Assembly: GCA_903813345.2 (NCBI GenBank)
Contig: CAIIXF020000001.1
Coordinates: 58,485,885-58,549,884 of the forward strand
Direction of reading: 5' to 3'
Length of the DNA: 64,000 nt
Source of the DNA: Owenia fusiformis
Lineage: Eukaryota; Annelida; Polychaeta; Sabellida; Oweniidae
A program made the translations under genes and the position numbers. The notes beneath the pieces are model-generated. The model saw nothing but the letters and a program-made list of their open reading frames with translations. It had not been told where the DNA came from and made no database searches. Below are positions 1,700-56,246 of the stretch, piece after piece (the first letter of the stretch is position 1; every line of letters starts with the position of its first letter).

Positions 1700-4600
1700 A
1701 TGCCCAGTGCGGGGGCCATAGCCCCACCGTGTATTGTGCCTTTAAGGGCCCCTGTCCCTGGTGTGCCTACGACACATATAGACTGCTCTACATACATAGA
1801 GATTGAAACAGGTATAGCTGATGTATATCATAAAATCCCTTTTGTTATCATTGCATGTAACTTGACTGCATCATTGTGGGATCTACAGCATGTCCTATCA
1901 CTTGGAATGCACAAAATGCAGCACTTAAAGTGAGAGTGATAGCCCAAATTATCTAAAATGGAATGAAATGCGTACATGTACATAACCCAACTTACCCAAG
2001 CCTCAATATGTGAATAATGTAAATTATATAACCAAGGTATATTCATCAAAATTTTTAAAATATCAAACAGACATGCTTAATAAATAAAGAGAATTGTTTC
2101 TGTATTTCAGAATCTCCAAGATGTAAAATCTACTTCACAACAAGTGGTGCTAAACCAAACCCATTCCAACTGAAGGTTGCAGGCAGAGAGCAGACATTCC
2201 GCTATAAGGCACCATTCACTTTGAAGACAGGAAAGAGGACACTTAAGGCTATAGCAGTGACAAGGTAAAGATACAAAACACCTCACTGTTCTTATTCTTT
2301 GGCCATGCTTTGCTTTTGTTCATTCGTTCGCCCACCCAGGACAGGGGTTTTCATTAGCAATAGACAAATTTTGCCAGTTTTTTGAGGAATTTCGCTACTG
2401 TTTTTCCATTTTGAAATCCTGCCTGTTGCCAGAAATTCTTTTGAAATCCTCTCTGTAGAATACTGCACTTTATGGAACTTGCCGTGGAGGCCCTGAATGA
2501 GAATGCTCAAAATAATTAAACCACTGGTCATTGAGACCTGCATTGGGAAATACTGATTGATAAAGATGGAGCAAGCAGAGAAGTTTTTCCCTAATGATGT
2601 TACATGATTTATATATAATGTTTAAACTTAAGTATAGCATATTGACACTTTGAACAATTTTCAAGAAAAAATGGTACAGAACTCATACATGCACTTGGTC
2701 AAAATTTGTGACATTTCTTATCATACTAGCCTTGCCCAAGTCGGTCTCTTTTACTTATCTTAGATCAGATAAGTAAAAAAATACCGACTTGGGCAAGGCT
2801 ATTATCATACTTGAAACGTGATATTTTGTCAATGTTTTGTGCTGATGTGTGGACACCACAAGAAATCACGTCATCAAGATAGTGTATTTATCCTTTTAAC
2901 ATGAATGTTACAGATGCAAAGGCAGACCACTGCCAAGACCTAGTAAGGTTTTGAGGGTGTTGGACAATTTACAAGGCAAGTATTTTACTTTACAAGTGCA
3001 ATATTCATTACTGAGTGTCTTCTTGTTATCTTACTAGGGATGGACTCCAGGAAAGTGCAGTTGTTACAAAGACATTTACAGTAGACGACACATCAGGGTT
3101 TAATAATTACACAGCTGATGATGATGAATCCCTTGCCAGTGTCAGATCTGTGGACACATATGTTTCAGAATATAACCCCAAGTTCAGCAAAAATAAACCC
3201 AGAAGTACTAAAAAGGTAAGAATTGTTGAACCTATGTAGTATCAGTAGCTATACTAGAGGTGTGAACCTTTTACTTATTCAGAATCAAAAGTGTTAGGGC
3301 AAATAATTATGAGTCTATTTATTCTTTCGGTTGCATTCTTTGTACATCTCTGTACATTTATATGGTTCAGAGTTTTTCTGTGAATTGTTTCTGCAATATT
3401 AGTGCCAATGGAGTATGATTATTTTTTCAGCCAACTCGAAATTCTCGAAAAGAACCACCAAGAAGTAAATCAGTTGACTTTAAACAAGCATGGTCAGAAA
3501 GCAATGGGGTAAATAATGGAAGTGACCATGTTAATATTCCTGATGGACCATTCAATCCAACCAACTATAGCGGAACCCAGGTAAATGTGTGGGGGGTACC
3601 ACCACATAATATGGCAGGCTGGTTGACTGCCCCAGGGGGTCCTGGGGGTGTGAGTTACCCTACCCATGAACAACAACTAGGGTACATGACAGAGAAAATG
3701 TTACAAGTAAGTATGATTCTTGTTTAATTATATATTCATTCGATTCATCCCAATTTAATGATATTGAAATGATAATTATTACTAATATGGATATTACAAG
3801 AGTCACATTGTTGTGATTGGAATTGGAGTTTGCAGAATCATTCATTGCAACAGTAAACCATTTTATGACTTGATTCAACACAACTATATCTATTTAATGA
3901 GAGTGCGGTTCTCTTTCCTTCGTATATTATTACTCCAAACTATCCTAGTTTATCTCATACTTCTGCCCTGCTCTGATAGTATAAAATTTTAGCCATCATA
4001 TGGTACTGTAAATCCTTATTGCAGAGTTTAGATGAACAAAAGCAGCAGACAATGAATGACATGAGGACAGCCATGCAGCAAGAAATACCACCCCCTGCCA
4101 TAGAACCCCCACCACCCCCAGAACCCGTCATAGAATATGTAAAGAAAGAACCAGAGTTACGGCCAATCAGCAGAGGAAATGGTGAGCCTTCTCAGAATTT
4201 TGAAAGTTCTATTTTTATGAATATTTCAGTTAAAGCTCGGATTTGTTACTTTGGAACAATTTAAAAATGATTTTCCTCAGAGTATAAAATCTTCAAAGTT
4301 ATAAGTAAAGAAATATCTATTGGGATGATTAATATGAAAGATCAAAATGCCTCATTACCAATGTCAATCATTTGTCACCTTGACAATGAACTTGGAAGTA
4401 CTGGTTGCCTATTGGGCAATGGACTGAATGCCAATATGTTAATTGGGAAATTGTGGTATCGCAACTTGAACATTTTTGATATATACCATGTTACATTCAG
4501 GTGATTGGAAAGAGCAGCTGGAGCACATATACGCACACCTCATCGAACACACTAAAAATCATCCCAACTTCAAAAAGAATATTAGCAGCCCAAAATTTGG

Positions 4601-7600
4601 ACAGGTACACCTTAATATTTTTGAATTTTTTATTTTATATTATTACAGTGAAAACTGTTTAGTGAAACACCTCTTAAAGTGGAAAACTCTTCAGAGTCTC
4701 AAGACCAAATGACGTAATGTTAAATGAACCTTGATAAGTGGAACATATCCCAAGTGGAACACTTTTTATACGTAAAGGTGTTCCACTTAGACAGGTTCTA
4801 TTTTATATTGATTACAGAACATGTACATGTGTGACATCTGGCATTTGACATTCTAACTTCTGGGATAACTGCAGTTATCAAAAATGAGGAAAAATTTGTC
4901 ATTTTTGTCATATTTTACTCAAAAGTTGCTCAACTTATATGAAATAAACTATATTCGCTGAAGTGGTCATTTGACATATAATAGGGTTTTAATGTACATG
5001 TACCTGTATGTATTGGATCTTGTATTTTGTAGATATCAGGTGTTGTCTACAAGGAGGAAGAAGACTGTTTTAATCTCAACATCACTCTAGCCAAACCTGG
5101 TGTCAGACCCAAGCCTAAACTGAAGACAACAGTCAAGGCACTGGATACAGCAAAGAAACTTTCCAAAGCTGGATCAAAAAAGGCTGGTAGGTACCCTAGT
5201 TTACAAGAGCTGACTTTGCGTATGCACTCTTTAAATCCAAGATAATCATTTGATTTGCTTTATATGCAATCAGAAAATCATTTTGTAGCATTTTCTGCCT
5301 TAACACTTTTAGTTTCATATCCTCTGATATATCAATGTAGCCTTTAAGCAATCTCCCTATACATTTGAATTACCCTGTATCAGCCTTCACATTGAATTTC
5401 CAATCATCAGGTTTAGATTCGAATTGATGGGTCAACACATTACTTTTTTGGTATTTCAAACATGGCTTATAGTAAACATCTGTTTTTAATTCAAACTCCC
5501 ATGAAAGGCCATTTGATTGTCACTATCTTCTAATCAACAAAACTGTAGAATCATCTGAAACAGTCAGGGGAAAGTGTAGCTATCTGATGGACATTCAGAA
5601 GCTATTGGCATTGGTGTCTGTAACACATTGATACACTTTTGTAACAATATGCAACATCTTACCAGGTAATGACATTTTGTTTTCATTTATTCTAGGAAGC
5701 GACACTGAAGCCACTAAAAAGAAAAAAGAAAAAGTTGTTGATCCGTATTTTGAAACAGAAGAATATGAGGTAAGTGAAAGGGACAAACCAGAGAAATCTC
5801 TTTCTGAAACTTTTTGTCTTGTGTGGGTTTATTTGATTCTTACTGAATATTGTTTGTTATCATTAGTTTTACTTCGTCTTATTGATTTTAACACTAGATT
5901 CATTATTGAGCATGATCTTTCAATTTCTGTCTCACTTTGCAAGCCTCAGTATTAACTCATTGACTACTCAAGAGTTTCAAGCGACCAAACACTTTGTTTT
6001 ATATAAGATAAAAATGCTTTTTTGAATAACCTTTAGGTAGTTCCACTCTTTGAGAAAGAAACTGAAAAAGAAATGAGAACATCCTATGACTTTTTTATTT
6101 CAGAATATCATTTTAATCTACTCGGTGATAATTGATATCTGCATTCGTTCTCTTTATTCTTTCGTTTGCTACGCTCTCATGCAGATATCAATATCACTTC
6201 CTAGTTAAAAATGACATTCTTCAAAATCATAGGATATCCTATAAATATCCATAAAAAATGTGGAAATATTAATATTTTCACCATGTGGATCTTAATAAGC
6301 TCAATTGACTTGTAAGGATAGCATGCCTTAGTAAATCTAGTGATTTGCATAGATTACAAAGTCATTTAAAACCTTGGTTAGTCAATGGGTATAACAAAAA
6401 CTAGCTGTGACTATCACAAATCTATCACATATTGTGTATGCATGCTTGTATTAACTATTAGTCTCCAGGACACAATATCAATGTTTTTGGTTGAAGTAAT
6501 TTATTAAAAAGGATCAGAACCCCCCCCCCCCAATCTCTTTTTGTGAAAGCTGATTCTTATTTGAAATATCTTCAGCAGAAAGTTTAATTCCAGCATTAAT
6601 TTTAATTTCACAGAAGGTGAGCCTTACCCCCTCCCTCACCTAAATGAAATAATTCAGCTATAACTGAAACATTGGTATTTAACCTGGCTTCTTACATGGA
6701 TGTGTAGTCCAGTACTAACAATAACATGTATATCACAATTATCACAATAAGCCACCAAAGTATAGGCGTAAAAAGGTTGAACCAGTACCCAAACAACGAC
6801 TCTCAGATGAGTATGAGCATGGCAATCACAGAGACAAATTCTCTGAGAAATCTAGAGATTCTGATGATCTATCTGATTCTGGCAGTAGGAACAGTAAGCA
6901 AAAAAGAAGGAAAAATAGTCTAGATTTGGAAGTGAAAAAGGTATGTGAATAACATGATCCTTGGGCAATTCACCTATCACCTATAATGATTGTCATTTTG
7001 AGAATTGATTTATTCAAGCAATTTTGTTTGACACCAGGCCCGTAGCCAGCTTTTGCCAAAAGGGATTCAAAAAATGAAAGGGGTTCACATTTGACAACTT
7101 TGGCCAGGGGGGTTGGGGGCTACAGGCCAGGAGTGGAGACCTTGTAGATGTTAGATCTACTTTGCCTCTCGTTATATTCTTTTAATTTGTTTTTCTGGAT
7201 TTTTGAACATATGAGATGAATGCTTCAGTCTTTTGGCATAACTGTTCCACATTGACATAATTGCATATACTGTACATCTTTTATAATGTCAAATGCGCAT
7301 GGGATATTTGACAGATTTTCAAATAATAGGAAGGATAAATGCAAATATATAGCTGCTAAGAAAGTTCAATATTGATCTGAATGTACAGTACATGTACTTT
7401 TTGTTTTCTATGTCTTTCCAGGGATCACATATTGCTTTATAGAGAATTATTCACTATACTGCATTATTTCATGTCACACACTTCTAAATGCTTTAACACT
7501 AATATGTCACTTTTATTTTTTGCTTTAACACTAGTATGTCACACTTATTTTTGCTTTAACACTAATATTTCAACCTTATTTTTGCTTTAACACTAATATG

Positions 7601-10600
7601 TCACTCTTATTTTTGCTTTAACACTAATATGTAACACTGCTTTTACTCTAACATTTCATTGTTACTGTGTGATCAGGTACCCCAGAAACCAAAGCCTAAT
7701 ATCCGTCAGTCACTTTTGAAAAAAGCTGAAACAATTCGTAAAAATAAACTGACATTTGATGGCACTCCTGAATCTTACCACTTTGCAGAGGACTACTGGG
7801 TAAGATATAGGAGTATACTATGGGTGTAATAAGAGTACACTATGTGGGAGTACACTATATGGGTGTAGAATGGGAGTATACTATGGAAGTAATATGGGAG
7901 TACACTATATGGGTGTAATATGGGAGTACACTATGGGTGTAATTGGGAATATACTATAGATGTAATATGTGAGTGAATTATGGATGTAGGAGCACACTAT
8001 GGGTGTAATATGGGAGTACACTATGGGCTTAATATGGGAGTACACTATATGGGTGTAGAATGGGAATATACTATGGAAGTAATATGGGAGTACACTATCG
8101 GTTTAATATGGGAGTACACCATCGGTTTAATATGGGAGTACACTATCGGTTTAATATGGGAGTACACTATATGGGTGTAAAATGGGAGTATACTATGGAA
8201 GTAATATGGGAGTGCACTATTGGTTCAATATTGGAGTACACTATCGGTTTAATATGGGAGTAAACTATGGGTGAAATATGGGAGTACACTATATAGGTGT
8301 AAAATGGGAGTATGGATGTAATAGGAGTAGACTATGGGTGTAATGGGAGTACTTCATGGGTGTTATGGGAGTAATAGGAGTACACTATTGGTGCAATATG
8401 GGAGCACACTATGGATGTACCGGGTGTAATATTGGTGTAAGGGGTTTCTTTAATTTTCTTTGGTATTGTAAGGGTTTTCTCGTTTACTTTTATACTTTTA
8501 TTCATTATACAAATTCAATGTTTGTTTTCATATTGTTTGATTTATTAAAATATCATTTCATGCTTACTTCCAGCAAGAGGGTACTGTGAAAGCTTGGCCT
8601 GACTTTAACGCTGAAGGCGATGCTGAGATAATACGTAATGCTATGAAAGGATTTGGTAAGTTTATCAATGATTCTTCTTATATACATGTATTCTATTTTT
8701 TCCTCTGAGCTTGGAAGTTTTATGACTGTCCTCTGTAAGTTGGGTATTTGAAAGCACAAATTTAAAGCCATCATGTCCATGTTGAAAGCATGAGTAACCT
8801 GCCAAGATGTATGATTCTTGTAAGATGCAGCAATAGGGAAAGTTCATCAGGTTTCCATTTTCTCTTTCCTAATTCATGCTCCTTCTCAAAACCTTCACCA
8901 ATGATAAGTTCTGCTCTTACAATAACCATAATAATATGATCAGGTAACTCAGTCGGGATTATACCTGTACCTCTGATGTACATTGCAAAAAAGCCTGGTA
9001 TGCCCCTATATGTTACATTGCCTGTTTACAGGAATTAGTTTCCAAAATATGACAGCATTTAATATTTAATTGCTCCAAAGATTTAATATTATAAGGAAAA
9101 CCCCTTATGTTTTTGAAAATGTAAGAATAAATGTTTGACATCTGAGGTTTTATGGTAACATAAACAGACAATTAATTTATAGGGGCCTTGTAGGTGCATA
9201 TATGTTTAAGTTTACTCAGGTCCACATGATTTTGGGCATTGGCCATGAGGGTTGTTGCCATGGGACACAAGGAACCTCTTAATGTTGTTCTCAAACTGCG
9301 CACGCTGGTTGTCAAACAAATCCAACAGTCTTTTCATTTCCTTGACATCTGCAATACAAACATTTGATAACTTCAAGATAAAAAAAGGATTTAAAATTGA
9401 ACTTGAAGGAAATATTATGGATGGCCCCCCATGGATACACCACACTCATGTTTTTTTATTAGATATACTTGCCAGGTGAAATAGATGTAAGGTAGTTTTG
9501 TAGATCAAATTTTGTACAGCACTGTACAAGAAATGTCATTCTTAGCCAAGTTACCTCTAGTGATACAGATTTGGATGGAGAGGATAGAAAGACTTACGTG
9601 TACAGCATTTTTTGTAAGAGAGATACCCACGGCAACAGACTTCTTTATTTGAGGGACATGGTTGTGGAGTGTAGACTGAATACGATTTTGTTACTGTATA
9701 GGGTTTTTGACTGGAATAACAATGTCAGTATCCTGTAAAATTTTCTTTAATGTGACTCTCTGTTTATGCATTTTTTCATTTCAGTGCTATTTAGCAAAAT
9801 AAAGATTTACTTTTCATCCACCTTGTTTTTCCAATGCATTGATAAGTTCTCAAATTTTCATTTGATCCAAAGACTCAAATGGTCCACATTGGAGCTTACA
9901 ATAAATTATAAAAAATATTTTTGGTCTGTCAAATCTTTATGTCAACTATTTTGAAATGTCAATTAAAAGATGGCACTGATATTCACATTAATATCAGGCA
10001 TTCATTAATAATTCATGAATATAATGTCAACTATATTTGCCATCTATTTGTTCAAAAGTAGTTAAAAAACCTTGGTGAAAAGTGTGCACACGCTTCTAAT
10101 GATATCAGAACTTCTAATGCTTTTTCTAAATGAGTCATGTTTTTCTCGCTTAGATGATTACACAAAAATGAAAGGACGATTCTCGGTTTGGAGAACGAAG
10201 TTCATCAATCTAAATGAGCATTATCCCTGCTTCGGACAAATTTGATTTTTTTTACATAATATAGATTTGAATGTCTTCTTTTGAATAGTCATAATTTAAT
10301 TTGGGTAATTTTTCGCAAAAAAATATTCGCGCAGTACACTGATGAACTTCTTTCCCCAAATCGAGACTTGTAATTTATTGAATCGGTCAAATTGAGCGTT
10401 ATCCCTGCTTCAGACCAATTTGTTAATTTTACATCTTGTAGATCTAAATGTCCTCTTTTGAATATTCATAGTTTAATTTGGGTAATATTTCTATATTTTT
10501 CATGAAAAAAATTATTAGCCCAGGAGACTGTTCTCCAAACCGAGAATCGTCCTTTGCATCTACCTCCCTAGCATTAGATAAAATCCACAATTGAAAATAG

Positions 10601-34600: not shown

Positions 34601-35853
34601 ATTAATTACTGTATTGACCTTCATTTAGCTCAAAATAGTTTTCATTTTAGACATCTCATTTTTGCTGTATGTCATTACCCCGTTCCTTTTTAGCCTTGTT
34701 TGTTCATTTACCCTGAGCCTTGTTCAAACAAAATGTCCTGCTTGCTTAAATACTTCAACTTTTCTATTGGAGTAATATTTAGTTTGTACTGTGAACATAA
34801 CACCAAACCCAGTTTACATACCAGTCATTCTTTTTATCCAAGCACTGAAAGTGTGCAACTAAGCCCCCTATCACACCAAACTAGTTCTTACCCATTCTTG
34901 CCAGTCCAACGAAAACGTTGTAAAACGGGCTCAATCTGGCTGTGGTCGGGAAATATATCTAAAATAATTAGCTTCTTCGTTCTTAAACAGTCTTCAATAC
35001 GTCCATCTCGTTTGCAGTTCGTTCAGGTCGCACCACGTCGGTGTGCAACGTCGTAGAACGCGTCCCTTAGTCTAGAAGGTCAACATGACCTGATTACAGA
35101 ACGGTATGGTCGCCATCGAATTTTGAATCGATTCAAAATTCTAAAATCACATTCCCATCTGAGAACGTTCATAAAGTTCGTAAATAGACCTTAGAAAGTT
35201 GCAGCTACGTTCATTCTGTTCGCACACAGTTTCAAACCAGTTTTGAAGAACGCAGTGGCAACTTGTTTGGTGTGATAGCTATATTTTTGCTAACTCGTTC
35301 ATAAGCAGTGTTAAATACGTTCTTAATCAGTTTAAACCCGTTTGCAATTAGTTCTACCTCGTTCTCAACACGTCCTCAGACAGTTCAACTCGTTGTTAAA
35401 ACGTCCCTAGTAGGATTGAAGTACGACGGTTCCGTTCGTAGTACGTCCAGCTCGTCGTTAGAACGTTGTCACTCGTTTTAATTGTAGAACGTGACGACCA
35501 CGAGAACATTTTGAGCATTGTCTAAGTTCTAGAGGACCTACCCGTTCGAGTACGTTCGATGAAGCTTGTAAATAGATCCCAAACGGTTCTTAGTAGGTCC
35601 AGTCCGTTCGTACACAGTTGAAGCCCGTTTTCGAGAACGTAGTGAGAACTAGTTTGGTGTGATAGTAGGGTAATATAATTACATGTATTATAAAACACAC
35701 AATACATTTATTTACAGGGTGTGTCATACAAGTGTCCAATTAAAAATTTCTAAGACTTTTCAAAAGTGTAAATCTTTTCCTGTATTGAAGCCAGTAATTT
35801 TTGGGTAACCTGAAATTGTGGTCTAGTTGGACACCTTTGCCAACCCATTGTAC

Positions 35854-35888
<35 letters not shown>

Positions 35889-38800
35889 AAACAATGTTCA
35901 TGTATTATATACTGTGTTTTGTTAACATCATGAGATAACCTTCAGGGATTTTGGATACATATATAATTAAATTGCCGCCAATTGAAATCAATATCCCAGA
36001 TGCGAGTAGAAATAATCTTGATTTACGTCATTAAAAATTCAGTCAAACTGATATCATATTTGGAATCTACATGTAAAATTACATTTGGAAATGTGATTTT
36101 GAAAAGAGTTTATCAACTTTGAAAATTTAATTTTCTTTGAAAATGTGACTTCTAGGTCGGGGAGATTCCCCATAGACCCCATGTTGTAAAACCACAAAAA
36201 GTGAAATATCTTTTCATGTGTTGGGTAGATAATATTTTCTTTTACTGGACATATTTTAATTTGTATAACTATCAGATACATAAAGGTAATATGAAAAGTG
36301 AACCACTAAAACTGATGCATATTCAAGTTTAAGAGAATCTTGTAATACCCTGCCATGTTAATTCCCCCGAATCAGCCACCTGGTGGCAGAACTGGTAACT
36401 ACCTACTCGCATCTGAGTAATTGTACTTGTTTATATAAGAAATAAATTGATAACATGAAAAAAAAATAGAAAAGACTGTTTTGTAGGATGATACATCTGG
36501 AGATTACAAAGAGACTCTGTTAGCCTTGATAGGAGAGAGGGCATGTAAGCCTCCTGCTAAAGCTGCTGACCCTTACGATGTAGTAGTTGGAGAACCTGAG
36601 CCTGAGATGGAGCAAGATCTATATGAGGTATTAGAGCACAAAACATCTTTTGGATGTGACATATGAATAGTGTAGCTCCAAAAGCCATAAAGTTTTGATC
36701 TGGGGCAGTTGATTTCTCTCCGACATAAAGAAAAGTTATGTTGAATGAAAACAACCTTTCTTCATTCTTGCCCAAATAAAAACCTCCCAAGTTGGCCTTT
36801 ATTGGCATATTTCACATTATAGTAACATAACCTTCTTAACTTTAGCTCTTCTTTCCCCTGTTTACTTTATTCCTTATTTCCTTTTATGACCATGATCTAT
36901 CATTCTGAGGCCCAACTCAATAATTATTTTACAGGAAGAAGGTGTTGTTGGCCCAATTGAAAACTTCCAGGCTGAGAAGGACTGTGAAGTTCTACGTAAA
37001 GCTATGAAAGGGTTTGGAACTGATGAGAAGGCCATAATTGGTGTAATCCCTGCTAGAAGCAATGATCAAAGACAACAGCTCTTGACGCAATACAAAACCA
37101 TGTATGGGAAGGTAGGGCATGAATGTACCTAAAACTAAATTCTCCACTTTTTTGAGTAAACTTTTATTTCATATCATGTATTTCTTAAATAAAGTTTACC
37201 CTGTCATCATGATTCATCTACCTACAAATGTTGAGCAATTCTTGTGACAATCAGTGGTAAATGTAATTTCCTCAATCCACCATGAGAGGGATAAAATCAT
37301 TGTATACAAAACAATATGGTTACCATGAGATTTTTTTAGCTTTTTGATAGAAAATGAATACCTGAATAATACATGACAAAAATCGTGTAAGACACAATTG
37401 TTCATTAGATGCAGTACATCACCCCATGCAACTGTTTATGTTCTAGGACCTTATCAAAGAACTAAAGGGTGAACTGGGAGGTAGCCTCAAAGACACAGTG
37501 GTTGGCTTGATGAAGACTAGTACTGATTTCTCAGCCTCAGAGCTTCACAAAGCAATGAAGGTATGTAAATGTTTCATTTATAGAACATTTCTTTGCACTA
37601 AATTCAAATCGTCCATGTTACAAGGGTATCAGATACAGCTACATGGGCTGACCTTGCATGCTGCCTGCTAGTATCAAGCATGATTCATTTTTTGGAAATT
37701 ATCATTACTTATTTTTTACTTTTTGTTCAGTTGTACAGAACAGTTGGTATCCTGAGAAGTGTATGTTGCAACTATTGTATGTCCTTTTAAAAGCTGTATA
37801 TTGCAAATACATTTTATTCTAATGTGCCATTACAGGGAGATCGTGGCGAAACGGTGGGTGGTATTTAAATGTGTCTCATAGTCAGAATAGTTCTCAGAAA
37901 TTTCAGAAATTAGAGTTTATTTTCAATTTGAAAATGATGATATTTTATTTGGATTTAAGGTAGCCCAAGTGCATTGAGTATAACATGGACCTTTAGCATG
38001 TGTACACTGTCATCATGTGCAAATGCAAATCCATCTCACTAGGCACACCTTAACATAGGGCCCACATAGGGCATTTGATAAATTATGAATGAAAGCTTAC
38101 TTTTGTACTTTTGAGAAAATTTTGAGGCTTTTTGAGAAATATCTGACTTTGGCTCACTGCTTTGTTTTAATAGATGCACATTTTACATTCATATGTTCTT
38201 TATTTTGATTATTTTGTAACAATCTTATCACATTTGAAGCAGAGGATTTGGAGGAATCTGAAAGTAGCAAATTGCCTTAAAAAAGCTTGTATGCATTGTT
38301 TCAAAGTGCTTGTGTGATATTCTGTTTGAAAATAGAAGATTATAGTCTAGTAAAAATGCTTCTAGTAAAGTGAGTGTCTGAGTAAGGTACCTGTGTTAAA
38401 CATAGGACAAAATTAGATGTTGTTGGTCAATTACTATGATCATACATTAAACACAGTTCTGTCACAGTGCATGCTTTGAATTCACTAAAATTGTATCTTT
38501 TGAGAAATGTAGTACGTAGAGATTTGAGGTCTAACTGAGTATGGCACCATTATAGTGACACATACTATTTTAGATAATATATGAGTACTTCGTCATATTA
38601 CCAGAAACATGATAGCCAAGGGTATGCTACTTGAAAATTCCCTTATAGAGAAACATTATGTTTTTATCATTATTTGTCTAATATTATTTGGAAAAGGCAT
38701 TTGAAGAAGAAAAGATGTAATGTGTAAAACTACAAGCTATCAAGGCATTCATATTACAGTTCAGACCCTAAGAGCATTGGAAGTAAGCAGTGAAATGGAA

Positions 38801-41800
38801 CATCTTGCCATCTGATATTTAACTGAAAATCATTACATTCTATTTTAGGGCCTTGGTACAGATGAAGATGTCCTCATTGAGCAGATATGTACCAAGAGTA
38901 ATGCAGAGCTGGCAGCTGTTAAAGCAGCATACAGAAGATGTAAGTTCACAGTGACATCTATATATGTTTCTATATAATCTTCATTTTCTACCATTATTAC
39001 CATTTATTTAACATTTCAGCCCCTTTGAATGTTGTAAAAGTTACATTGGTGACCATTGAGATCTTATCGGCATTAAAACTGTTTCTAGTATTCAAAATTG
39101 TCTTATTTTTCAAAGTTCAATGCCAAGAGTAAAAAGTGGTTGCCATTAGCAGCCACCAGGCAACTGTGAGTTTTAAACTAAAGTAACATCCTCGCTGTAA
39201 CTTTTTTGATAACAGAAAATTGCATCATAAGAGATAATGTTTTTTTGTCACTACCACAAGTGGTGACATACTGTTATAGTCTCCAACTTTTTGTGACAGT
39301 GTTCAGCAATCGGGGGGTTGGCGTTTGGCATCTGTAACAAATGGTAGGTTATGGCATTAATCGTAGAGACCATTGCATTTTAATGATAATTTCTTTTTAT
39401 TTTAGTATTCAGTGCAGACCTTGAGAAGGACATTGTGTCAGAAACATCGGGTCATTTCAAACGCTTGCTTGTCTCATGTTTACAAGCTAACCGCAACGAG
39501 AACAGAGAATTTGATCGTGCAAAAGCCAGAGCAGATGCTGAGGTTCTTTATAAGGCTGGGGAGAAGAAATGGGGGACGGATGAATCACGATTTAATGTGA
39601 TTCTCTGTTCAAGGAGCTATGGACACCTCAGAGCGATGTTTGAGGAATACAAGAAATTCTCTAAGAAAGACATTGAAGATGCTATCAAGAGTGAGATGTC
39701 TGGGGACTTGGAGAAGGGCATGCTTACAACAAGTAAGGATATTCTGTTCAAAAAGGCTAAGTTTTGAAAAGCTTCTTTAAACATATTAAAGCAGTATGAA
39801 AGTATGTTAACTATATCTTTTATGATATCATTTATGTATCATGATATCATAAATCCAACAAATTATTTTTTGATTCTTCACTAACTAGGAAGATAACATT
39901 TCACTCAGTTCACTTCTGGTGGCTTCTACATATACTCCACCATGCATTACAAAGCAAGAAAAACTAAATACACATGTCCATTTATTTCTTTGCTTCCAGT
40001 CCGTGTTGTGCGAAACAAAGCTGCGTATTTTGCCAAATTGCTACATGATTCAATGAAAGGATTAGGGACAGATGATGACACACTGATCCGCGTAATGGTC
40101 TCTAGGTGTGAAGTTGACATGGTACAGGTCAAGCAGGAGTTCCTGAGATTATATAAGCAGTCTCTAGATGCATTTGTTGCTGTAAGTTGCTGTTGATAAT
40201 GTTTTCTGGGAAGATTCTTGAACTTCTTATAACTTAATTTTAAAGCCATTTTAGCTCAAAATTCATAAAAATAAAGAATTTAGAGACATTTATGGATATA
40301 CCTATTGATACTCTTAGAGCCCATCTGGTTATAAATGTTTGTGACCTGTTCAACCTTTGAATTTTGGGGCTAGCACTCATACCTAATTTTTTTTCACTCT
40401 ATCCCTCTCAGTCTTCCTTTCTTACGCTTTGATGGTAACAACTTATTACATTATTAACCAAGTTGTACATTTGAGCTGTATTTCATTTAATTGTATCTTT
40501 TCGGTTCTTCAGTTTCTTTGCATTCAACAATAATTTAAATACATGAATGTAAGAAGGGTAAAAAACTTAAAAGGAAGCATGTAAATGTACATATGGAATC
40601 TCAATATATTTTATGATATATTTTTACTGTAGCTACTTGTAGCTACTTAATATCCATAAATATTTTTCAGGATTTTTTTTTTATTAATCATTTTTATTTC
40701 AAGTTCATATATTATAACATTTAATTTCATACAATGAAAATTCAACAAGGTTAATCAATTTAACATTTGTGTTGAACTTCGCAGTAAATATACCATACAC
40801 TTATATGCAATACAAATTTGTTACAATTATTCGTAACTATTCATATATAAACAAAAAGGAAAAAGTACAATTAAAGCTGATATTGGAATGCTTTACAAAA
40901 AAGGTGTGCAGTGGTGTAAATTATGGGATGGTGTAATATACATGTTAGTCAATCTTGGTTGCTTGTAGGAATTTGAAAGTTGCTTTCAGCAGAAGTGTAT
41001 TATCTTCATTACTAAGTTCACTGTTACCATGCAAGAGCATATTTACTTTGCTAACAGAGTTAGCATCTAAGAATTTTTCTAAACAACCAGTAATATGGAG
41101 ATCTATAAGTAGTTGGATTCTATCATTTACAAATTGAGGGCATTTGAGGAAAAAATGAGTAGGGGTTTCATTTTCATGACCACAGTTACAGGCTGGTGAG
41201 TCAATGTTTGTAAAGTGATGAGCAAATAATTGACTTTTTAGAAATAGGTCCACTTTTAACCTGTTAAATATAATTTCAGTTTTTCTAGTGATATCAAGTG
41301 ATGCTATTATATTTATACATTTTTCATTCCCGAAATGCTTTCTAAGTTTGCCTTTAAAAGTTGATATTCTATTACAATTTCTTAAATCATTAGGCAGACC
41401 ATTCCATTCTTCAATCGCAGCAAAATATGTAGTTTTTCTAAATGAAATGCTGATATTTAGAGGCACAATATACTCTCTGACAGCCCTTAGAATTCTATTT
41501 GGTTCATGTAAGTATTTATTAAATAATTCAGTGACATATGAAGCTGATAAATTGATTCTACTTTTAAATAGAAATGAGCAAAGATGGCTTCTTCTTCTCT
41601 CAGACAAAGTAATCCAATTTAATGTCTTCAAGACCTTATAGGTGCTTGAACCATGCAGAGCACCGGAAATTAGACAAGCTGCATTATAATGCAGTCTTTC
41701 AAGTTTGCTGGTAGCTATATTTGGAGCACTAATGTAAATTATATCAGCATAATCAATTTTACTTAGAATAAAAGAATTATATATGGTTTCCAAATGATTC

Positions 41801-44772
41801 GAACGAAGAATGTGAGTTAATTGTTTAAATGGATTTAAGATTGTCTGTAATTCCTTGGTGAGCTCATTAACATGTTCCTTGAAATTAAGCTTTTGATCTA
41901 AAATAACACCAAGGTGTTTATGACTAATAGTTTTAGGAATGGGGTCACCTCCCAAATAGAGTATAGGTTCATTAACAGGGTTTGTTAAAGGTGATGTAAA
42001 AGTCAGGTCAGCACTTTTTGATGCCTTAAATTTCATTTGCCAGGTATCAGCCCAGGTTTTAATTGTATTTAGGTCCATTTGCAGATTTTGAGAGAGTAAA
42101 GGGCTTTTCTTAGAGTAAGGAAGGAAGATTGATGTATCATCTGCATAAATGAAAGTCTTACAATTTAGGTTATCAGGTAGATCATTTATATACATTAAAA
42201 ACATAAGCAGCCCTAATACACTGCCTTGTGGCACACCAGCATTGATAAAATCAGGTTCTGACCATTTCGAGAAAGAATTATTTACTTTAACCTTCACTTG
42301 TCTTTGTGACAGATATGAATTCATTAAAAGTAAGAGATTATTGTTGATGCCATAAGATCTCATCTTTTGTAATAGTAATTGATGCGGAACGACGTCAAAA
42401 GCTGACGCTAAATCAAGAAAGATAGTTCTTACATTGTTTCCATTATTCAATTCTTCTTGAATGCAATGAATAATATATGAAAGTTGGGAAGTGGTATTAT
42501 GCTTAGGAAGAAATCCTGACTGAAAACTGTAAAAGAGGTTATTTTGGATCATGTGATTGAAAATTCTATCATAAATAATCTTTTCCAGAACTTTAGATAA
42601 GGCATTTAACAATGTGACTGGTCTATAATTGACAACTTTAGATCTATCTCCTTTCTTGTGTAATGGAACAATAATACCCTCTTTCCAAATCTTTGGGAAA
42701 CAATGAGATGTAAAAATTTTGTTAAAAAGCAAACTCAATGGTTCACATATCGTCTCAGCTGATAAAATTAGCATTCTATTATTTATTTTATCTGTCCCCT
42801 CCCCCTTTGATGCATCAAGTTGTTGAAGTAGTTTTAAAACCTCATTCTTATCAGTAAAAATATCTTCCAAGTTTAGATTACACCTTAATGGAAAATTTGG
42901 TAATGGTTCGTGTATTTGATCTACGTTGTTCTTCTGGATAAAATATTTAAGAAAAAGTTCAGCTTTCTCAGAAGAAGATCCCGCAGATAGTTTAGGATTA
43001 TCTAAATGTAAATAAGGCAGTGACACATTAAATGACTTTCCAAGTAGCTTCTTCAAAAGTATCCAGTAATCTGTTGAGTTTCTATTTAAATCTGATAAAG
43101 TTCCACATGTTGATTCTATATGTTTACGCTTAGCTTCATTTATCATATTTACAACACATAAGCTTTGTTCTTTGTATTTTTGAAGAAAGGTTAAATCATT
43201 TGAATGTTTAAATTTATGATGAAGTCAATCTCGTTTATTAATTTGCTTCTTTATATCAGAATTGAACCAAGGCTGATCGTTTTCTTTTATTAAAACCTCT
43301 TTATGCGGAATTGTTTCCTTAAAAATGTTGAACAAAGTATCAACAAACCTATGAGTGGAAATATGAACATTTTGAAGTTCTAAGATCTCTCCCCAGTTTG
43401 AATTAAGTATTCTTTGATTCAATATTGTTTTATTAAGTTTATCATATTGCCAAATGATTTTCTTGGTTGGAGTTTCTTTAATAATGTTCATTTTTAGGTA
43501 TGTTAACAAAGTGCAATGATCAGTATTTCCTACTGGTGGTAGAACTTTATGATTAGATATTATATTAATATTATCTGTAAAAGACAAGTCTATACATGAT
43601 TTAGTAATAAAGTTGTTACGAGACTGCACTCTTGTTGGTTCATCTATAAGTTGTATAAAATTAAGATCAAATAAGATGTTGTGCAAGTTAGTCCCTGCTT
43701 CATCAACTTTATCATCTTTCCACCAAAAAGAATTACGTGCATTAAAATCTCCATTTACTACAGTTGATCCAGGAAGTTTCTGAGCATCCTCAAGGTTTTT
43801 ACCAAGTAATTTGAAATAGTCTAGTCTACTTATTTTATCTTGTGAAGGTGATCTATAAAATACTCCATAATTGAATAGTTTACCACTTACTTTAAGATTT
43901 AACCAAATATTTCCTAGTGTATCATTCATTAGTTCATGAATTATTTCAGCTTCTAATGAATTATGAACATATAGTATAAGACCTCGATTATTTGATCTGT
44001 AATGTTTAAGTTCAAAATTGTCAATTTTAAGATCTTTTTGTATGTCACTATTTGTCAAATTTCCCACCTCACATAGAGCAATAACTTTAATTTGTTGCTC
44101 TTTTACTTTGAACTTTAGTGCTTCAAAACGTGCTAAACTATTTGCTTTGAGACTATTAATATTAGAAAATAATATGGGTAATTCTGATATAGGACCTGGA
44201 TTTTTTTCAATGTCACCAGATAAATATAATAATTGAGAGCAATCATATAAGCAATCGAGTAAAGGTGAGCCAGGAAATATCAGCAATATTAAAAGTAATT
44301 TAAATATTCTAATTAAAATCTTGAAGTATGACGTATTTGATGTAAAAGAAATATAACCGATGCAATAGTAGACAATTAAAATGATCATACTTTGATATTT
44401 TTCAGGATGACCTATCAGGTGATTACAAGAAGATCATAGTTGCTCTGGTAAATGGTAATGGCTGTGGAGTGAAGTCATCCAGTGGGCAGACAGAGAATGT
44501 CTTCAAACCAGATGGTGTGTGGCAACTAGATTCTCTCTAAGAATGGTCAAAGAAAAAAATGGATATTTTTTAATCTTTTTGGTTCATTTCACCAAATCAT
44601 GATTATCATTGTCAAAGTAACCCTGTACCAAAGTAACAATCATCTGTGTACAGAACAGAAAATGTTTTTAACCAGACTTGTTTTGTTTCAATAAAAACAG
44701 TTTAAAAAGAATGCTAATGACTTCTATGTATGTTTTTCTGCAGATGCAGCCAGTGGGGATGAAGAGGACTAG
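1700..44772 (+). CDS. Octo-repeat annexin with DZANK1-like N-terminal extension (25 exons)
   Basis: Coding exons: 1700-1811, 2111-2264, 3038-3215, 3431-3706, 4025-4181, 4501-4604, 5033-5186, 5696-5769, 6752-6940, 7677-7799, 8574-8655, 18729-18823, 19172-19285, 19630-19720, 20095-20231, 31416-31605, 32500-32681, 36487-36627, 36935-37111, 37447-37560, 38849-38939, 39406-39732, 40000-40181, 44406-44514, 44744-44772. They total 3582 nt (1193 aa), and phases agree at every junction. Residues about 30-100 resemble the CHB_HEX_C-type fold at the DZANK1 N-terminus. Residues about 240-507 are charged and low-complexity. Residues about 508-1193 are eight annexin repeats, which by family knowledge bind acidic phospholipid in a calcium-dependent way on the cytosolic membrane face. 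Weakest points are the exon 9 acceptor (poor pyrimidine tract) and whether the N-terminal exons always join the annexin core rather than the core having its own promoter. Confidence 0.85.
2727..2801. repeat. Short near-perfect hairpin in intron 2
   Basis: TAGCCTTGCCCAAGTCGGT at 2727 pairs with ACCGACTTGGGCAAGGCTA ending at 2801, and the complementarity continues inward through TTTACTTATCT/AGATAAGTAAA to a loop of only a few bases. It is probably a tiny MITE or palindromic element. Confidence 0.7.
7036..7132. repeat. CAGGCCCGTAGCCAG-type miniature element (short copy)
   Basis: It starts with CAGGCCCGTAGCCAG and ends with the inverted remnant GGGGGCTACAGGCC. Between are TTTTGCCAAAAGGG and TTTGGCCAGGGG stretches that recur in the copies at 12877, 16636, 46919 and 58762. 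Non-autonomous, no coding sequence. Confidence 0.55.
7486..7650. repeat. 31 bp tandem array, about five units
   Basis: The unit AACACTAATATGTCACACTT plus ATTTTTGCTTT repeats about five times with substitutions, the last one decayed. It sits just before annexin exon 10 (7677) in intron 9. Confidence 0.7.
7803..8445. repeat. 24 bp-period minisatellite in intron 10
   Basis: More than 20 degenerate units of a GGGAGTACACTATGGGTGTA-type motif run from the exon 10 donor to about 8445. Most units are 24 bp, with some expanded by an extra ATAT. Because 24 is divisible by three, two frames stay open over parts of the array and give repetitive GVHYRFNM-like translations. These are not considered genes. 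Confidence 0.85.
9212..16970 (-). CDS. Nested small secreted cysteine-rich (EMI-like) protein, four exons
   Basis: Exons on the minus strand: 16970-16762, 10890-10663, 9710-9598, 9348-9212, giving 228 aa with matching phases (2, 2, 1) and consensus donors (GTAAGT at all three). Residues 1-18 form a signal peptide ([18 protein letters not shown]). A helical, charged N-terminal part follows. Then comes a Cys/Tyr/aromatic region with [42 protein letters not shown] and KKCCT, whose Y-x(3)-Y spacing, CG...W..C..(Y/W)R..Y and CC.GY pattern recall EMI-type extracellular domains. The C-terminus is a short helix and CPKSCGPE. I infer an extracellular matrix or secreted product. The domain name is tentative, but the coding nature is well supported by four-exon phase agreement. 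Confidence 0.8.
10171..10555. repeat. 385 bp MITE with perfect 25 bp terminal inverted repeats
   Basis: 10171-10195 and 10531-10555 are exact reverse complements (AAAGGACGATTCTCGGTTTG... outward). Inside are two direct copies of a roughly 110 bp segment (about 10221-10330 and 10398-10505) sharing TTATCCCTGCTTC and CATAATTTAATTTGGGTAAT-type stretches. A related, reverse-oriented copy lies at 23290-23575 in an SLC45 intron. It sits in intron 2 of the nested secreted-protein gene. Confidence 0.75.
11409..11911. repeat. 500 bp palindrome inside the left arm of the long inverted-repeat element
   Basis: Arms of about 205 bp (11409-11617) and 245 bp (11664-11911) are reverse complements with mismatches and indels, for example ATCACTGGTGATCCAC against GTGGATCACCAGTGA and TCGTCGATTTACTTCCTCA near the centre. 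The loop is about 45 bp. A transcript would form a very long hairpin. Confidence 0.7.
12877..13075. repeat. Degenerate CAGGCCCGTAGCCAG-type element
   Basis: It starts with CAGGCTCGTAGGCAGG, contains TTCTCACCAATCTGAGCACTT and a CCAAAACTGTCAAAAAGTTC stretch like the 46919 copy, and ends with GGTAAAAGCTGGCTACAGAC. Lies between the arms of the long inverted-repeat element. Confidence 0.5.
13237..14038. mobile_element. Transib/RAG-like non-autonomous DNA element (802 bp)
   Basis: The ends are CACGGTGTTATAGCATGGCG at 13237 and its reverse complement (one mismatch) ending at 14038, with TIRs of at least 25 bp. Both sides are flanked by AATAG (13232-13236 and 14039-14043), a perfect 5 bp target-site duplication. 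A 5 bp duplication and a CACxxTG terminus match Transib and ProtoRAG elements, whose ends resemble the RAG heptamer CACAGTG. The interior has no recognisable transposase, so it is a deletion derivative or MITE. Other superfamilies cannot be excluded without a full-length relative. Confidence 0.6.
15575..16551 (-). mobile_element. Decayed IS630/Tc1-mariner-type transposon with TIRs and TA duplication
   Basis: The ends CAGGGTGGTCAAAAAA (15575) and TTTTTTGACCACCCTG (ending 16551) are inverted, about 130 bp of arm is recognisable, and TA flanks both sides. On the minus strand (about 16135-15880) one frame carries [16 protein letters not shown], then [15 protein letters not shown] and QWGYPKDRV. 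This is the DDE_3-type pattern in which the second and third catalytic Asp lie in QQD and SPD contexts. The frame is interrupted on both sides, so the element is dead. It sits in intron 1 of the nested secreted-protein gene. Confidence 0.8.
16636..16757. repeat. CAGGCCCGTAGCCAG-type element, truncated
   Basis: CAGGCCCGTTGATTTGCCGAG is followed by TTCACTTTGGCAAATTTGGCC and AAAATTCTCAGAATGG, shared in reverse with the copies at 46919 and 58762. It ends in a G-tract (16744-16754) directly against the donor of exon 1 of the nested gene. Confidence 0.5.
17133..17345. repeat. Cluster of short palindromes (ACGT, AGCGCT and GAGCTC cores)
   Basis: Within about 210 bp there are AAGACGTCTT, AAAACGTTTT (three times), AAGAGCTCTT (twice), TAAGAGCGCTTA and AAGACGTTAAAACG-type units. 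Two halves each end in a (T)GCAAATCCA or TGTAAATCCA stretch. It looks like a non-autonomous element built from subterminal palindromic repeats. No coding potential. Confidence 0.6.
18183..18272. repeat. Hairpin in intron 11
   Basis: ATGGGGAGTAAGTCACCCCT pairs with GGGGTGGCTTACTCCCCAT across a loop of about 35 bp, and the match extends to ATCCATG/CATGGATC. Probably a small MITE. Confidence 0.6.
18824..20094. other. Introns 12-14
   Basis: Introns 18824-19171, 19286-19629 and 19721-20094 are AT-rich. A C-tract occurs near 19438-19446. I see no other feature. Confidence 0.6.
20983..21036. repeat. Two direct copies of a 26 bp near-palindromic motif
   Basis: CTACATCCTGGGATATGATC and following CCAGT is repeated immediately as CTACATCCTGGGATACGATC plus CCAGT. 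Each contains a CTGGGATATGATCCCAG near-palindrome. Confidence 0.6.
21270..21630. repeat. Dispersed AAAATGGCNGCC repeat, copy 1
   Basis: It contains two internal units of about 110-120 bp beginning TTTCAAAATGGCCGCC and TTCAAAATGGCTGCC, each followed by a TATGGCTATATTATATTCAA-type or GTATTGTTTTTCTGATTTGT segment. The same arrangement is found at 30455-30800. Confidence 0.55.
22166..27360 (-). CDS. SLC45-family sugar/proton transporter, nested in annexin intron 15, four exons
   Basis: Coding exons on the minus strand: 27360-27280, 26969-25409, 23135-22960, 22390-22166, giving 680 aa with matching phases. SLC45 proteins are 12-helix major-facilitator members thought to move sucrose or other sugars with protons. 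Six N-terminal helices begin near residue 84. The family motif LGRRRPF is at 148-154, following an SDRC loop. An Asn-rich lumenal loop ([11 protein letters not shown]) carries possible glycosylation sites. A large charged cytosolic loop (about 318-463) separates the halves. C-terminal helices run through [17 protein letters not shown] to the end. The start ATG at 27360 gives a short polar N-terminus, and the large exon also has an in-frame Met at 26891. TTTATT at 21962 could be the reverse-strand poly(A) signal. I cannot assign a specific paralogue (A1, A2 or A4). Confidence 0.9.
23290..23575. repeat. Related copy of the 10171 MITE, reverse orientation
   Basis: Two direct sub-repeats (GAGGACATTTAAATCTACAA and GAGAACATTTAAATCTACAA with ATATGTA) and the end CGTTCTCCAAACCG correspond to the interior and terminal repeat of the 10171 element. 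The element ends exactly where the 923 bp tandem duplication begins. Confidence 0.6.
23572..25417. repeat. Two-copy tandem duplication, unit 923 bp, in SLC45 intron 2
   Basis: 23572-24494 and 24495-25417 are nearly identical (a few substitutions, e.g. TATAAATAAT versus TATTAATAAT). The unit's right end includes the last 9 bases of the large SLC45 exon and its GTAAGT donor. That makes a duplicate donor in the upstream copy (24480-24486) within the intron. Both copies carry an identical 108-codon minus-strand open frame with no domain resemblance, which I do not consider a gene. Confidence 0.92.
28856..29592. repeat. Foldback element, about 735 bp
   Basis: The outer ends are GGATGGGTATCGATAT (28858) and ATATCGATACCAATCC (ending about 29589). 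Inner arms of about 140 bp (about 29040-29200 and 29245-29395) are reverse complements, sharing ACAAAGGAAATTTTGGTTGA against its complement. No transposase. An A-tract at 29409-29421 lies between. Confidence 0.7.
30455..30800. repeat. Dispersed AAAATGGCNGCC repeat, copy 2
   Basis: TGAAAATCCAAAATGGCTGC and later TTTTTAAATGGTCAC and TTAAAAATGGACC units occur at about 120 bp spacing, each followed by TATGGCT and TTGTTTTCTGATTTGTGCC, matching copy 1. Confidence 0.5.
31200..31297. repeat. Hairpin 120 bp upstream of annexin exon 16
   Basis: GAATACCAGCTGAACTTTCA...GGTGTATTCC (31200-31242) pairs with GGAATACACCTTGC...GGTATTC (31255-31297) with a 12 bp loop. Probably a MITE. It follows a locally CG-richer patch (30950-31080). 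Confidence 0.7.
31606..32499. other. Intron 16
   Basis: It holds a possible small TIR element at 31815-32107 (TTATTATGCACCTC inverted at both ends) and a lone terminal-repeat-like stretch, ACAGGGTATCCCATAAGTAA, at 32324. Otherwise nothing. Confidence 0.45.
32782..34061. repeat. Non-autonomous element with CAGG..GCCAAA inverted ends
   Basis: The left end is CAGGATAAGCCAAATAGATA then AATCTTAATAACTCAGT. The right end is the reverse complement, ACTGAGTTACTAAGATTTAT through GGCTGACCCTG. TA precedes the left end, but the right flank is TG. The CAGGG-like end and TA site suggest a Tc1/mariner-related MITE. No transposase frame was found in the 1.28 kb. Confidence 0.5.
34862..35676. repeat. TIR element built of many degenerate CGTTC/ACGTCC/GTTCGT motifs
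   Basis: The ends CTATCACACCAAACTAGTTC (34869) and GAACTAGTTTGGTGTGATAG (ending 35669) are inverted. A third copy, CTTGTTTGGTGTGATAG, occurs internally at 35261-35277. Between them, short motifs such as CGTTCGT, ACGTCC, AACGTT and AGTTCG recur every 10-20 bp on both strands. It is richer in CG dinucleotides than its surroundings. No coding sequence. Confidence 0.6.
35855..35888. repeat. TAAA microsatellite
   Basis: About eight uninterrupted AAAT/TAAA units. Confidence 0.9.
37561..38848. other. Intron 20
   Basis: 1.3 kb of AT-rich sequence with no exon, repeat or element I can support. Introns 36628-36934, 37112-37446, 38940-39405 and 39733-39999 likewise show nothing. Confidence 0.55.
40660..40673 (+). 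repeat. Target-site duplication of the LINE, carrying a duplicated splice acceptor
   Basis: ATATTTTTCAGGAT at 40660-40673 is repeated exactly at 44395-44408. The second copy is the functional acceptor of annexin exon 24 (CAG|GAT at 44405/44406). The first is an orphan acceptor 480 bp after exon 23. Confidence 0.85.
40945..43146 (-). CDS. LINE ORF, C-terminal part: reverse transcriptase
   Basis: 733 codons from an internal Met, in the same frame as the upstream endonuclease part with 26 codons between the TGA and this Met. Motifs: [18 protein letters not shown] (fingers, about 163-180), [13 protein letters not shown] (catalytic Asp, about 243-255), [10 protein letters not shown] (303-312) and [10 protein letters not shown] (332-341, catalytic YADD). 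A C-terminal Cys/His cluster [17 protein letters not shown] is typical of CR1, Daphne or Crack-like elements. The stop separates it from the endonuclease, so this copy is probably inactive unless the stop is read through. Confidence 0.9.
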   Translation of the reverse strand: MINEAKRKHIESTCGTLSDLNRNSTDYWILLKKLLGKSFNVSLPYLHLDNPKLSAGSSSEKAELFLKYFIQKNNVDQIHEPLPNFPLRCNLNLEDIFTDKNEVLKLLQQLDASKGEGTDKINNRMLILSAETICEPLSLLFNKIFTSHCFPKIWKEGIIVPLHKKGDRSKVVNYRPVTLLNALSKVLEKIIYDRIFNHMIQNNLFYSFQSGFLPKHNTTSQLSYIIHCIQEELNNGNNVRTIFLDLASAFDVVPHQLLLQKMRSYGINNNLLLLMNSYLSQRQVKVKVNNSFSKWSEPDFINAGVPQGSVLGLLMFLMYINDLPDNLNCKTFIYADDTSIFLPYSKKSPLLSQNLQMDLNTIKTWADTWQMKFKASKSADLTFTSPLTNPVNEPILYLGGDPIPKTISHKHLGVILDQKLNFKEHVNELTKELQTILNPFKQLTHILRSNHLETIYNSFILSKIDYADIIYISAPNIATSKLERLHYNAACLISGALHGSSTYKVLKTLNWITLSERRRSHLCSFLFKSRINLSASYVTELFNKYLHEPNRILRAVREYIVPLNISISFRKTTYFAAIEEWNGLPNDLRNCNRISTFKGKLRKHFGNEKCINIIASLDITRKTEIIFNRLKVDLFLKSQLFAHHFTNIDSPACNCGHENETPTHFFLKCPQFVNDRIQLLIDLHITGCLEKFLDANSVSKVNMLLHGNSELSNEDNTLLLKATFKFLQATKID
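43225..44388 (-). CDS. LINE ORF, N-terminal part: leader, 2A-like motif and APE endonuclease
   Basis: 387 codons to a TGA. Residues 1-40 are strongly hydrophobic ([10 protein letters not shown]). Residues 53-66 ([14 protein letters not shown]) match the 2A consensus D(V/I)ExNPG|P, where translation can skip the Gly-Pro bond and release the leader. The endonuclease follows with [14 protein letters not shown] (catalytic Glu), [15 protein letters not shown] and NTDHC, the APE signature motifs, so nicking of target DNA is expected. The reading frame continues in phase after the TGA into the reverse transcriptase part at 43146. Confidence 0.88.
   Translation of the reverse strand: MIILIVYYCIGYISFTSNTSYFKILIRIFKLLLILLIFPGSPLLDCLYDCSQLLYLSGDIEKNPGPISELPILFSNINSLKANSLARFEALKFKVKEQQIKVIALCEVGNLTNSDIQKDLKIDNFELKHYRSNNRGLILYVHNSLEAEIIHELMNDTLGNIWLNLKVSGKLFNYGVFYRSPSQDKISRLDYFKLLGKNLEDAQKLPGSTVVNGDFNARNSFWWKDDKVDEAGTNLHNILFDLNFIQLIDEPTRVQSRNNFITKSCIDLSFTDNINIISNHKVLPPVGNTDHCTLLTYLKMNIIKETPTKKIIWQYDKLNKTILNQRILNSNWGEILELQNVHISTHRFVDTLFNIFKETIPHKEVLIKENDQPWFNSDIKKQINKRD
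44515..44743 (+). promoter_or_regulatory. Last annexin intron with alternative stop and poly(A) signal
   Basis: If the donor at 44515 is not used, the frame continues GVWQLDSL to TAA at 44538-44540. An AATAAA lies at 44690-44695, still inside the intron. Retention or intronic polyadenylation would replace the acidic AASGDEED tail. The same arrangement is in the duplicated copy at 56356-56584. Confidence 0.45.
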
Positions 44773-55097: not shown

Positions 55098-56235
55098 CAG
55101 AATTGAACCAAGGCTGATCGTTTTCTTTTATTAAAACCTCTTTATGCGGAATTGTTTCCTTAAAAATGTTGAACAAAGTATCAACAAACCTATGAGTGGA
55201 AATATGAACATTTTGAAGTTCTAAGATCTCTCCCCAGTTTGAATTAAGTATTCTTTGATTCAATATTGTTTTATTAAGTTTATCATATTGCCAAATGATT
55301 TTCTTGGTTGGAGTTTCTTTAATAATGTTCATTTTTAGGTATGTTAACAAAGTGCAATGATCAGTATTTCCTACTGGTGGTAGAACTTTATGATTAGATA
55401 TTATATTAATATTATCTGTAAAAGACAAGTCTATACATGATTTAGTAATAAAGTTGTTACGAGACTGCACTCTTGTTGGTTCATCTATAAGTTGTATAAA
55501 ATTAAGATCAAATAAGATGTTGTGCAAGTTAGTCCCTGCTTCATCAACTTTATCATCTTTCCACCAAAAAGAATTACGTGCATTAAAATCTCCATTTACT
55601 ACAGTTGATCCAGGAAGTTTCTGAGCATCCTCAAGGTTTTTACCAAGTAATTTGAAATAGTCTAGTCTACTTATTTTATCTTGTGAAGGTGATCTATAAA
55701 ATACTCCATAATTGAATAGTTTACCACTTACTTTAAGATTTAACCAAATATTTCCTAGTGTATCATTCATTAGTTCATGAATTATTTCAGCTTCTAATGA
55801 ATTATGAACATATAGTATAAGACCTCGATTATTTGATCTGTAATGTTTAAGTTCAAAATTGTCAATTTTAAGATCTTTTTGTATGTCACTATTTGTCAAA
55901 TTTCCCACCTCACATAGAGCAATAACTTTAATTTGTTGCTCTTTTACTTTGAACTTTAGTGCTTCAAAACGTGCTAAACTATTTGCTTTGAGACTATTAA
56001 TATTAGAAAATAATATGGGTAATTCTGATATAGGACCTGGATTTTTTTCAATGTCACCAGATAAATATAATAATTGAGAGCAATCATATAAGCAATCGAG
56101 TAAAGGTGAGCCAGGAAATATCAGCAATATTAAAAGTAATTTAAATATTCTAATTAAAATCTTGAAGTATGACGTATTTGATGTAAAAGAAATATAACCG
56201 ATGCAATAGTAGACAATTAAAATGATCATACTTTG
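55098..56235 (-). mobile_element. LINE 5' fragment in the second duplication copy
   Basis: Identical leader, 2A-like motif and endonuclease as at 43257-44394, cut at the duplication joint. The frame runs nine bases past the joint-proximal NS into GLIQ and a stop at 55084. The reverse transcriptase half is absent. Only one copy of the target-site sequence (56236-56249) remains, as expected if the duplication cut through an existing insertion. Confidence 0.92.
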
Positions 56236-56246
56236 ATATTTTTCAG

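Follow-up and report, generated by a model that had tools for sequence, protein, structure and literature searches.

A probable fusion of a DZANK1-like head to an octo-annexin core in the annelid Owenia fusiformis

A stretch of 64,000 nucleotides from the genome of Owenia fusiformis (referred to here as the window; C1:58485885-58549884 of a 498-Mb genome) contains a single open reading frame of 1192 residues, which is assembled from 24 exons on the plus strand between window positions 1700 and 44540. The frame opens with two blocks that are homologous to parts of the protein DZANK1 and closes with eight annexin repeats, all of which carry calcium-site motifs. Annexin heads decide the partners of these proteins, and DZANK1 is a little-studied ciliary, dynein-linked protein that has been connected with microtubule transport. 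We consider it probable, judging from the sequence, that all of the exons belong to one gene, which could make short forms beside the full form. With somewhat less assurance, we also favor the fuller reading, i.e., that the DZANK1-derived head and the octo-annexin are one gene product of 1192 amino acids that acts as an adaptor. The modules would be known ones in a new combination.

The spliced gene model has GT-AG borders at all 23 introns, and the phases are consistent throughout. The frame starts with the ATG at 1700 and its stop codon ends at 44540; a poly(A)-like signal (AATAAA, 44690-44695, plus strand) lies 150 bp past the stop. Upstream of the ATG there are three in-frame codons and then a stop, and this start aligns with the start of DZANK1 in the alignments to both the DZANK1 of the same genome and PDB entry 11xu. 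The head consists of residues 1-507, encoded by exons 1-10, and is followed by the annexin lead-in exon at 8574-8655; the annexin core is residues 508-1192. As the earlier note reported, ten phase-matched exons and the junctions 7799/8574 and 8655/18729 are present in the sequence, and their frame and phases check out; the fusion itself is predicted from them.

The first three exons encode the DZANK1-type N-terminus. Exon 1 (1700-1811, plus strand like all of the exons described here) contains the start codon and residues 1-37, and it leaves in phase 1 through a GT donor; exon 2 (2111-2264) encodes an Fn3_assoc/CHB_HEX_C domain, and exon 3 (3038-3215) encodes the end of this domain and a linker. 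Both Pfam families score above their cut-offs at residues 30-102 (Fn3_assoc, E=2.1e-11; CHB_HEX_C_1, E=1.7e-7). Exon 4 (3431-3706) is a low-complexity linker with no convincing homology. Exon 5 (4025-4181) encodes a Gln/Met-rich stretch and a Pro-rich linker, and its 3' end, from residue 282, runs into a second block that continues through exon 6 (4501-4604) and into exon 7 (5033-5186), which also encodes a basic linker after it; the aligned part of this block extends to residue 344. A search of PDB sequences to E=10 returned only four matches to the head, namely DZANK1 (11xu chain G1, 752 residues) at E=2.7e-27 and three others that were all at E=1.7 or worse. The DZANK1 alignment consists of two blocks in the same order, residues 3-142 against 11xu residues 2-136 and residues 282-344 against 11xu residues 467-527. 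Thus, the head has both the N-terminal Fn3_assoc/CHB_HEX_C domain and the central GYWRxQLxHI segment of DZANK1. The note had described a CHB_HEX_C-type, DZANK1-like domain in exons 1-3, on which the Pfam and 11xu matches agree; however, it had this one block only and had missed the central segment in exons 6 and 7. The solved structure 11xu contains four DZANK1 chains, and its accession is near that of 11yj, which holds CFAP20; 11xu itself is not among the entries listed for SPAG6 or among the 8 of 11 listed for CFAP20.

The head is without the zinc ribbons and ankyrin repeats of DZANK1, as had been claimed. The paired-CXXC pattern of the DZANK1 double zinc ribbons is absent from the plus-strand frames of 1700-8655, introns included, and no zinc ribbons hidden in the introns of the head were found. 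As a control, the same pattern gave six matches in a 50-kb stretch of this genome that contains DZANK1; by inspection, five of these are zinc-ribbon-like. Likewise, tblastn of the window with an ankyrin consensus and a piece of DZANK1 detected no ankyrin repeats (the one listed match, at E=0.46, has an internal stop), whereas identical queries do detect ankyrin in the DZANK1 locus on C8.

That locus bears on the origin of the head. In whole-genome searches, the two head blocks match only the window, C8:18.60-18.62 Mb and one weak place on C9 (E=0.56). The matched pieces at C8:18.60-18.63 Mb, although they are not a full gene model, identify this locus as DZANK1 because they include the N-terminal exons, several paired-CXXC exons, the central exon and, about 30 kb in, ankyrin exons. 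A whole-genome search with the Pfam DZR family gave no matches even though DZANK1 has plain paired CXXC motifs; single short exons probably fall below the threshold, and this negative was not counted. Read from the printed borders, the exon borders 1/2, 2/3 and 6/7 agree in place and phase between the head and the C8 DZANK1 (for example, the acceptor of exon 3 is in phase 2 in both, and the border 6/7, within the central segment, is in phase 0 in both). The central exon, exon 6, is 104 nt long in both genes with the same phases. Identities over the matched stretches are 61, 48, 47 and 37% for exons 1, 2, 3 and 6, respectively. Together with these identities, the common borders and phases suggest that the head is most simply a DZANK1 duplicate without the zinc-ribbon and ankyrin exons.

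The annexin core starts with the lead-in of exon 11 (8574-8655), which shares 53.8% identity with its counterpart in the second half. Repeats 1-4 and the linker between the halves are encoded by exons 12-18 (18729-18823, 19172-19285, 19630-19720, 20095-20231, 31416-31605, 32500-32681 and 36487-36627), and repeats 5-8 and the stop by exons 19-24 (36935-37111, 37447-37560, 38849-38939, 39406-39732, 40000-40181 and 44406-44540). In the spliced model, PF00191 matches eight stretches in the whole core (E=4.9e-188), and the best PDB match of the core is annexin VI (1avc, E=1.6e-174). The calcium-site motif G-x-G-T (or K-W-G-T) with an acidic residue 39 positions later is present in all eight repeats, where the 39-residue spacing is that of an annexin A5 repeat. 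Annexin cores bind anionic membranes with calcium, and the same would be expected of this core.

Annexin A6 (PDB 1avc and 1m9i) also has eight annexin repeats in two cores, and the earlier note had compared the window protein with annexin A6-type proteins. By descent, the core is not A6-type. The two halves of the core are 54.7% identical to each other over 329 residues by BLASTP and 56.9% in a multiple alignment, in which their identity to the A6 halves is only 43.4-47.1%. The window halves pair in an unrooted tree of eight sequences (ultrafast bootstrap, 89), and neither groups with the matching half of A6. Orthology to annexin A6 was rejected on these grounds; given that each half resembles the other more than it does the A6 halves, and that the two pair in the tree, the sequences indicate that this octo-annexin is not orthologous to A6. 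The head would differ as well. That of A6 is short (the PDB match starts at A6 residue 11), whereas in the window protein 507 residues would precede the lead-in, provided that exons 1-10 are joined to it.

The closest core found is an A7/A11-like tetra-annexin of the same genome (L016, C9:28.557-28.567 Mb), which adjoins the window halves in the same unrooted tree of eight sequences with a split from the rest of 88. Its identity of 58-61% to each window half is flattered by a partial sequence built from matching pieces, and it equals the closeness of the halves to each other. By inspection, its junction into the lead-in is in phase 0, as in the window. However, the fetched piece has a single four-repeat core and a Pro-Gly-Tyr-rich head, and no DZANK1 domain was seen there. 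Two versions of one repeat-2 stretch in this gene (L016 3593-3492 and 3296-3222, C9:28.56 Mb) look like mutually exclusive exons.

Other reading frames lie in the annexin introns. An MFS transporter frame (25356-27011, minus strand; MFS_1, E=5.4e-15), which we take to be SLC45-like, is nested in intron 15, and a further likely exon of this gene is at 22166-22531 by inspection. LINE-like endonuclease and reverse-transcriptase frames, also identified by inspection, occupy 40945-44433 on the minus strand of the last annexin intron and overlap the start of the last annexin exon. This exon lies in a tandem duplication (43257-52157 and 55098-64000, 99.94% identical over 8903 bp at an offset of 11841) and has a second copy near 56247-56381. 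The duplication is either recent or an assembly artefact. The open reading frames of a downstream gene at 47493-47816 and 49573-50127, with copies at 59336 and 61416, have no Pfam match at E<=0.01.

The linker exons 8-10 bear on whether the head and the core are parts of one gene. Exon 8 (5696-5769) has strong splice sites, exon 9 (6752-6940) encodes a charged, Lys/Ser-rich linker and has the form of a phase 0/0 cassette, and exon 10 (7677-7799) is a phase 0/0 linker exon flanked by minisatellites at 7489-7638 and, within intron 10, at 7845-8373 (plus strand, Tandem Repeats Finder). In a coding test that took annexin, DZANK1 and MFS-transporter coding sequences for training, left the head exons out and used stop-free intron segments as the null, nine of the ten head exons score as coding at p<=0.019; the exception is exon 6 (p=0.066). 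The values are 0.019 for exon 4, 0.0005 for each of exons 5, 7 and 9, 0.010 for exon 8 and 0.0155 for exon 10, and exons 8-10 combine to p=1.2e-5 (Fisher). Another test, which was trained partly on head exons, gave 0.31 and 0.061 for exons 4 and 5, and 0.005, 0.010 and 0.025 for exons 8, 9 and 10, respectively.

The splice sites of these exons are uneven. The acceptors of exon 9 (leave-one-out score, -7.9) and exon 10 (-4.3) are the weakest of the 23, the rest scoring 1.4 to 13.8, and the exon 9 acceptor at 6752 is equalled or exceeded by 76% of background AG sites. The 5' border of exon 9 as drawn is not credible, and of the alternative acceptors above 3 bits (6104, 6185, 6469, 6594 and 6713), none gave a convincing in-frame exon by inspection. 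Each of exons 8, 9 and 10 ends in phase 0; exon 9 or exon 10 can be skipped without loss of the frame, and the weak acceptors therefore hurt exon 9 more than they hurt the fusion. The sites of the junction from exon 10 to exon 11 rank among the top 2.3% (donor 7799) and the top 0.7% (acceptor 8574) of background sites with a matrix that includes both, and leave-one-out scoring gives them 2.8 and 7.2, respectively. A transcript would presumably cross from exon 10, or from exon 8, to exon 11. The earlier picture of an octo-annexin with a DZANK1-like head is kept for the type of head and, most simply, as one predicted gene, but not for an A6-type descent or for exon 9 as drawn, which has no usable acceptor.

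Two observations bear on separate genes. There is no methionine between residues 258 and 530 (Met 257 is followed by Met 531), i.e., across exons 6-10 and the lead-in; consequently, the linker exons need an upstream start, and neither they nor the lead-in could by themselves initiate translation of a full annexin core. Secondly, reading past exon 8 leads to a stop at 5953, and reading past exon 10 leads to a stop at 7827 after nine residues. The agreement in phase 0 at exon 11 has a chance of one in three, and this counts against the fusion. The main competing explanation is a pair of tandem genes. The first would encode a short DZANK1-like protein that ends after exon 8 or 10, and the second an octo-annexin that starts from a small first exon of its own within intron 8, 9 or 10. 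The weak acceptors of exons 9 and 10 fit such an arrangement, as do the two read-through stops, the AATAAA at 7743, inside exon 10, and the ATTAAA hexamers at 6503 and 8544, between exons 7 and 11. Intron 10 also contains seven formal ATG-donor candidates, which leave room for a micro first exon there. However, exons 9 and 10 look coding and have no methionine or stop of their own, so that they can serve neither as the translated 5' end of an annexin by themselves nor as a complete 3' end. Furthermore, the AATAAA at 7743 precedes the read-through stop at 7827, and cleavage just downstream of this AATAAA would leave the transcript with no stop codon. This AATAAA is the only one in 5187-8573, against 3.9 expected; the shortfall is not significant (P of one or none=0.10), and 77 of 1213 equal segments across the 64 kb have one or none. 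The scarcity of such poly(A)-like signals in this interval is, therefore, weak evidence at best for one gene. Adding a leader to exon 11 by trans-splicing is unlikely as well because the first methionine, residue 531, is inside repeat 1, unless the leader supplies an ATG. On balance, we regard two genes as unlikely.

A single locus could also make alternative products, the full fusion together with a head-only form that retains intron 10, an annexin-only form from an internal promoter, or both. The phase 0/0 cassette form of exon 9 would suit this arrangement, and so would the fact that a retained intron 10 runs into its stop after nine residues, with the ATTAAA at 8544 beyond it. As the primary explanation of the locus we consider it rather improbable. 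Least probable by far is an assembly misjoin, at the 0.5-kb minisatellite within intron 10 or at a nearby error, that united two unrelated loci. The minisatellite itself and the 99.94% duplication downstream mark the region as repeat-prone. However, the window contains no N, the minisatellite is immediately preceded by a coding-like phase-0 exon and followed by an annexin exon that is also in phase 0, and the head blocks have no match beyond the window, DZANK1 and the single place at E=0.56.

If the gene is single, its function may be considered in the light of what is reported for DZANK1. According to passages of PMC4617706, DZANK1 binds NINL through its zinc fingers (residues 244-317) and co-purifies with DYNLL1 and DYNLL2; when expressed in cells, it is found on microtubules as well as at the ciliary base, and zebrafish in which it is knocked down accumulate vesicles. 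The link between DZANK1 and vesicles, which the earlier note had offered as a new hint, had thus been published in 2015. None of the partners in these passages is mapped to the portions of DZANK1 that the window head retains. NINL binding is predicted to be lost because it was mapped to the zinc fingers, which the window protein is without. In our proposal, calcium binding would place the eight-repeat core on anionic membranes and the DZANK1-derived head would be the protein-binding end, so that a membrane or vesicle could be coupled to that part of the DZANK1 network (a microtubule, the basal body or a dynein light chain) which is independent of zinc ribbons and ankyrins. Even given the gene, a calcium-switched membrane adaptor of this kind is a tentative suggestion that may well not hold, and that the head would reach microtubules or dynein light chains is inferred. 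A scan of the head for a conserved LC8/DYNLL-binding motif, in the form given in the abstract of PMC3078936, found only the core GTQV at residue 197. This is at chance level (689 of 2000 shuffled sequences have one), and direct binding to a dynein light chain is therefore unsupported.

The window protein shares with DZANK1 the N-terminal domain and the central segment in the same order, and it differs in having an annexin core in place of zinc ribbons and ankyrin repeats. For annexin heads, passages of a 2025 review (PMC12249911) give a range from a few to more than 100 residues, with AnxA11, AnxC1 and a Ciona annexin among those above 100, and they describe the heads as mostly disordered and the information on invertebrate annexins as limited. 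Like the window protein, these three have an annexin core with an extended head; in contrast, the predicted head described here has about 507 residues and is homologous to domains of another named protein. No description of a DZANK1-annexin architecture was found among the papers listed in the literature searched, which was mostly outside subscription journals, and automatic annotation may hold it.

A still broader reading is that the protein represents a new annexin class, a calcium-switched membrane tether with a stripped DZANK1 head. The annexin repeats would replace the zinc-ribbon and ankyrin surfaces, and a module that elsewhere reaches vesicles via NINL and dynein would be wired directly to the membrane. 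We consider this doubtful; if it is true, the two kept blocks would be the functional minimum of DZANK1. In conclusion, an annexin head derived from a known transport protein would be unusual and testable as an architecture, and the core is an example of an octo-annexin other than an annexin A6 orthologue. The gene would also dissect DZANK1: the first domain and the central segment have been retained, the zinc ribbons and ankyrins have not, and the retained blocks would be worth testing alone.
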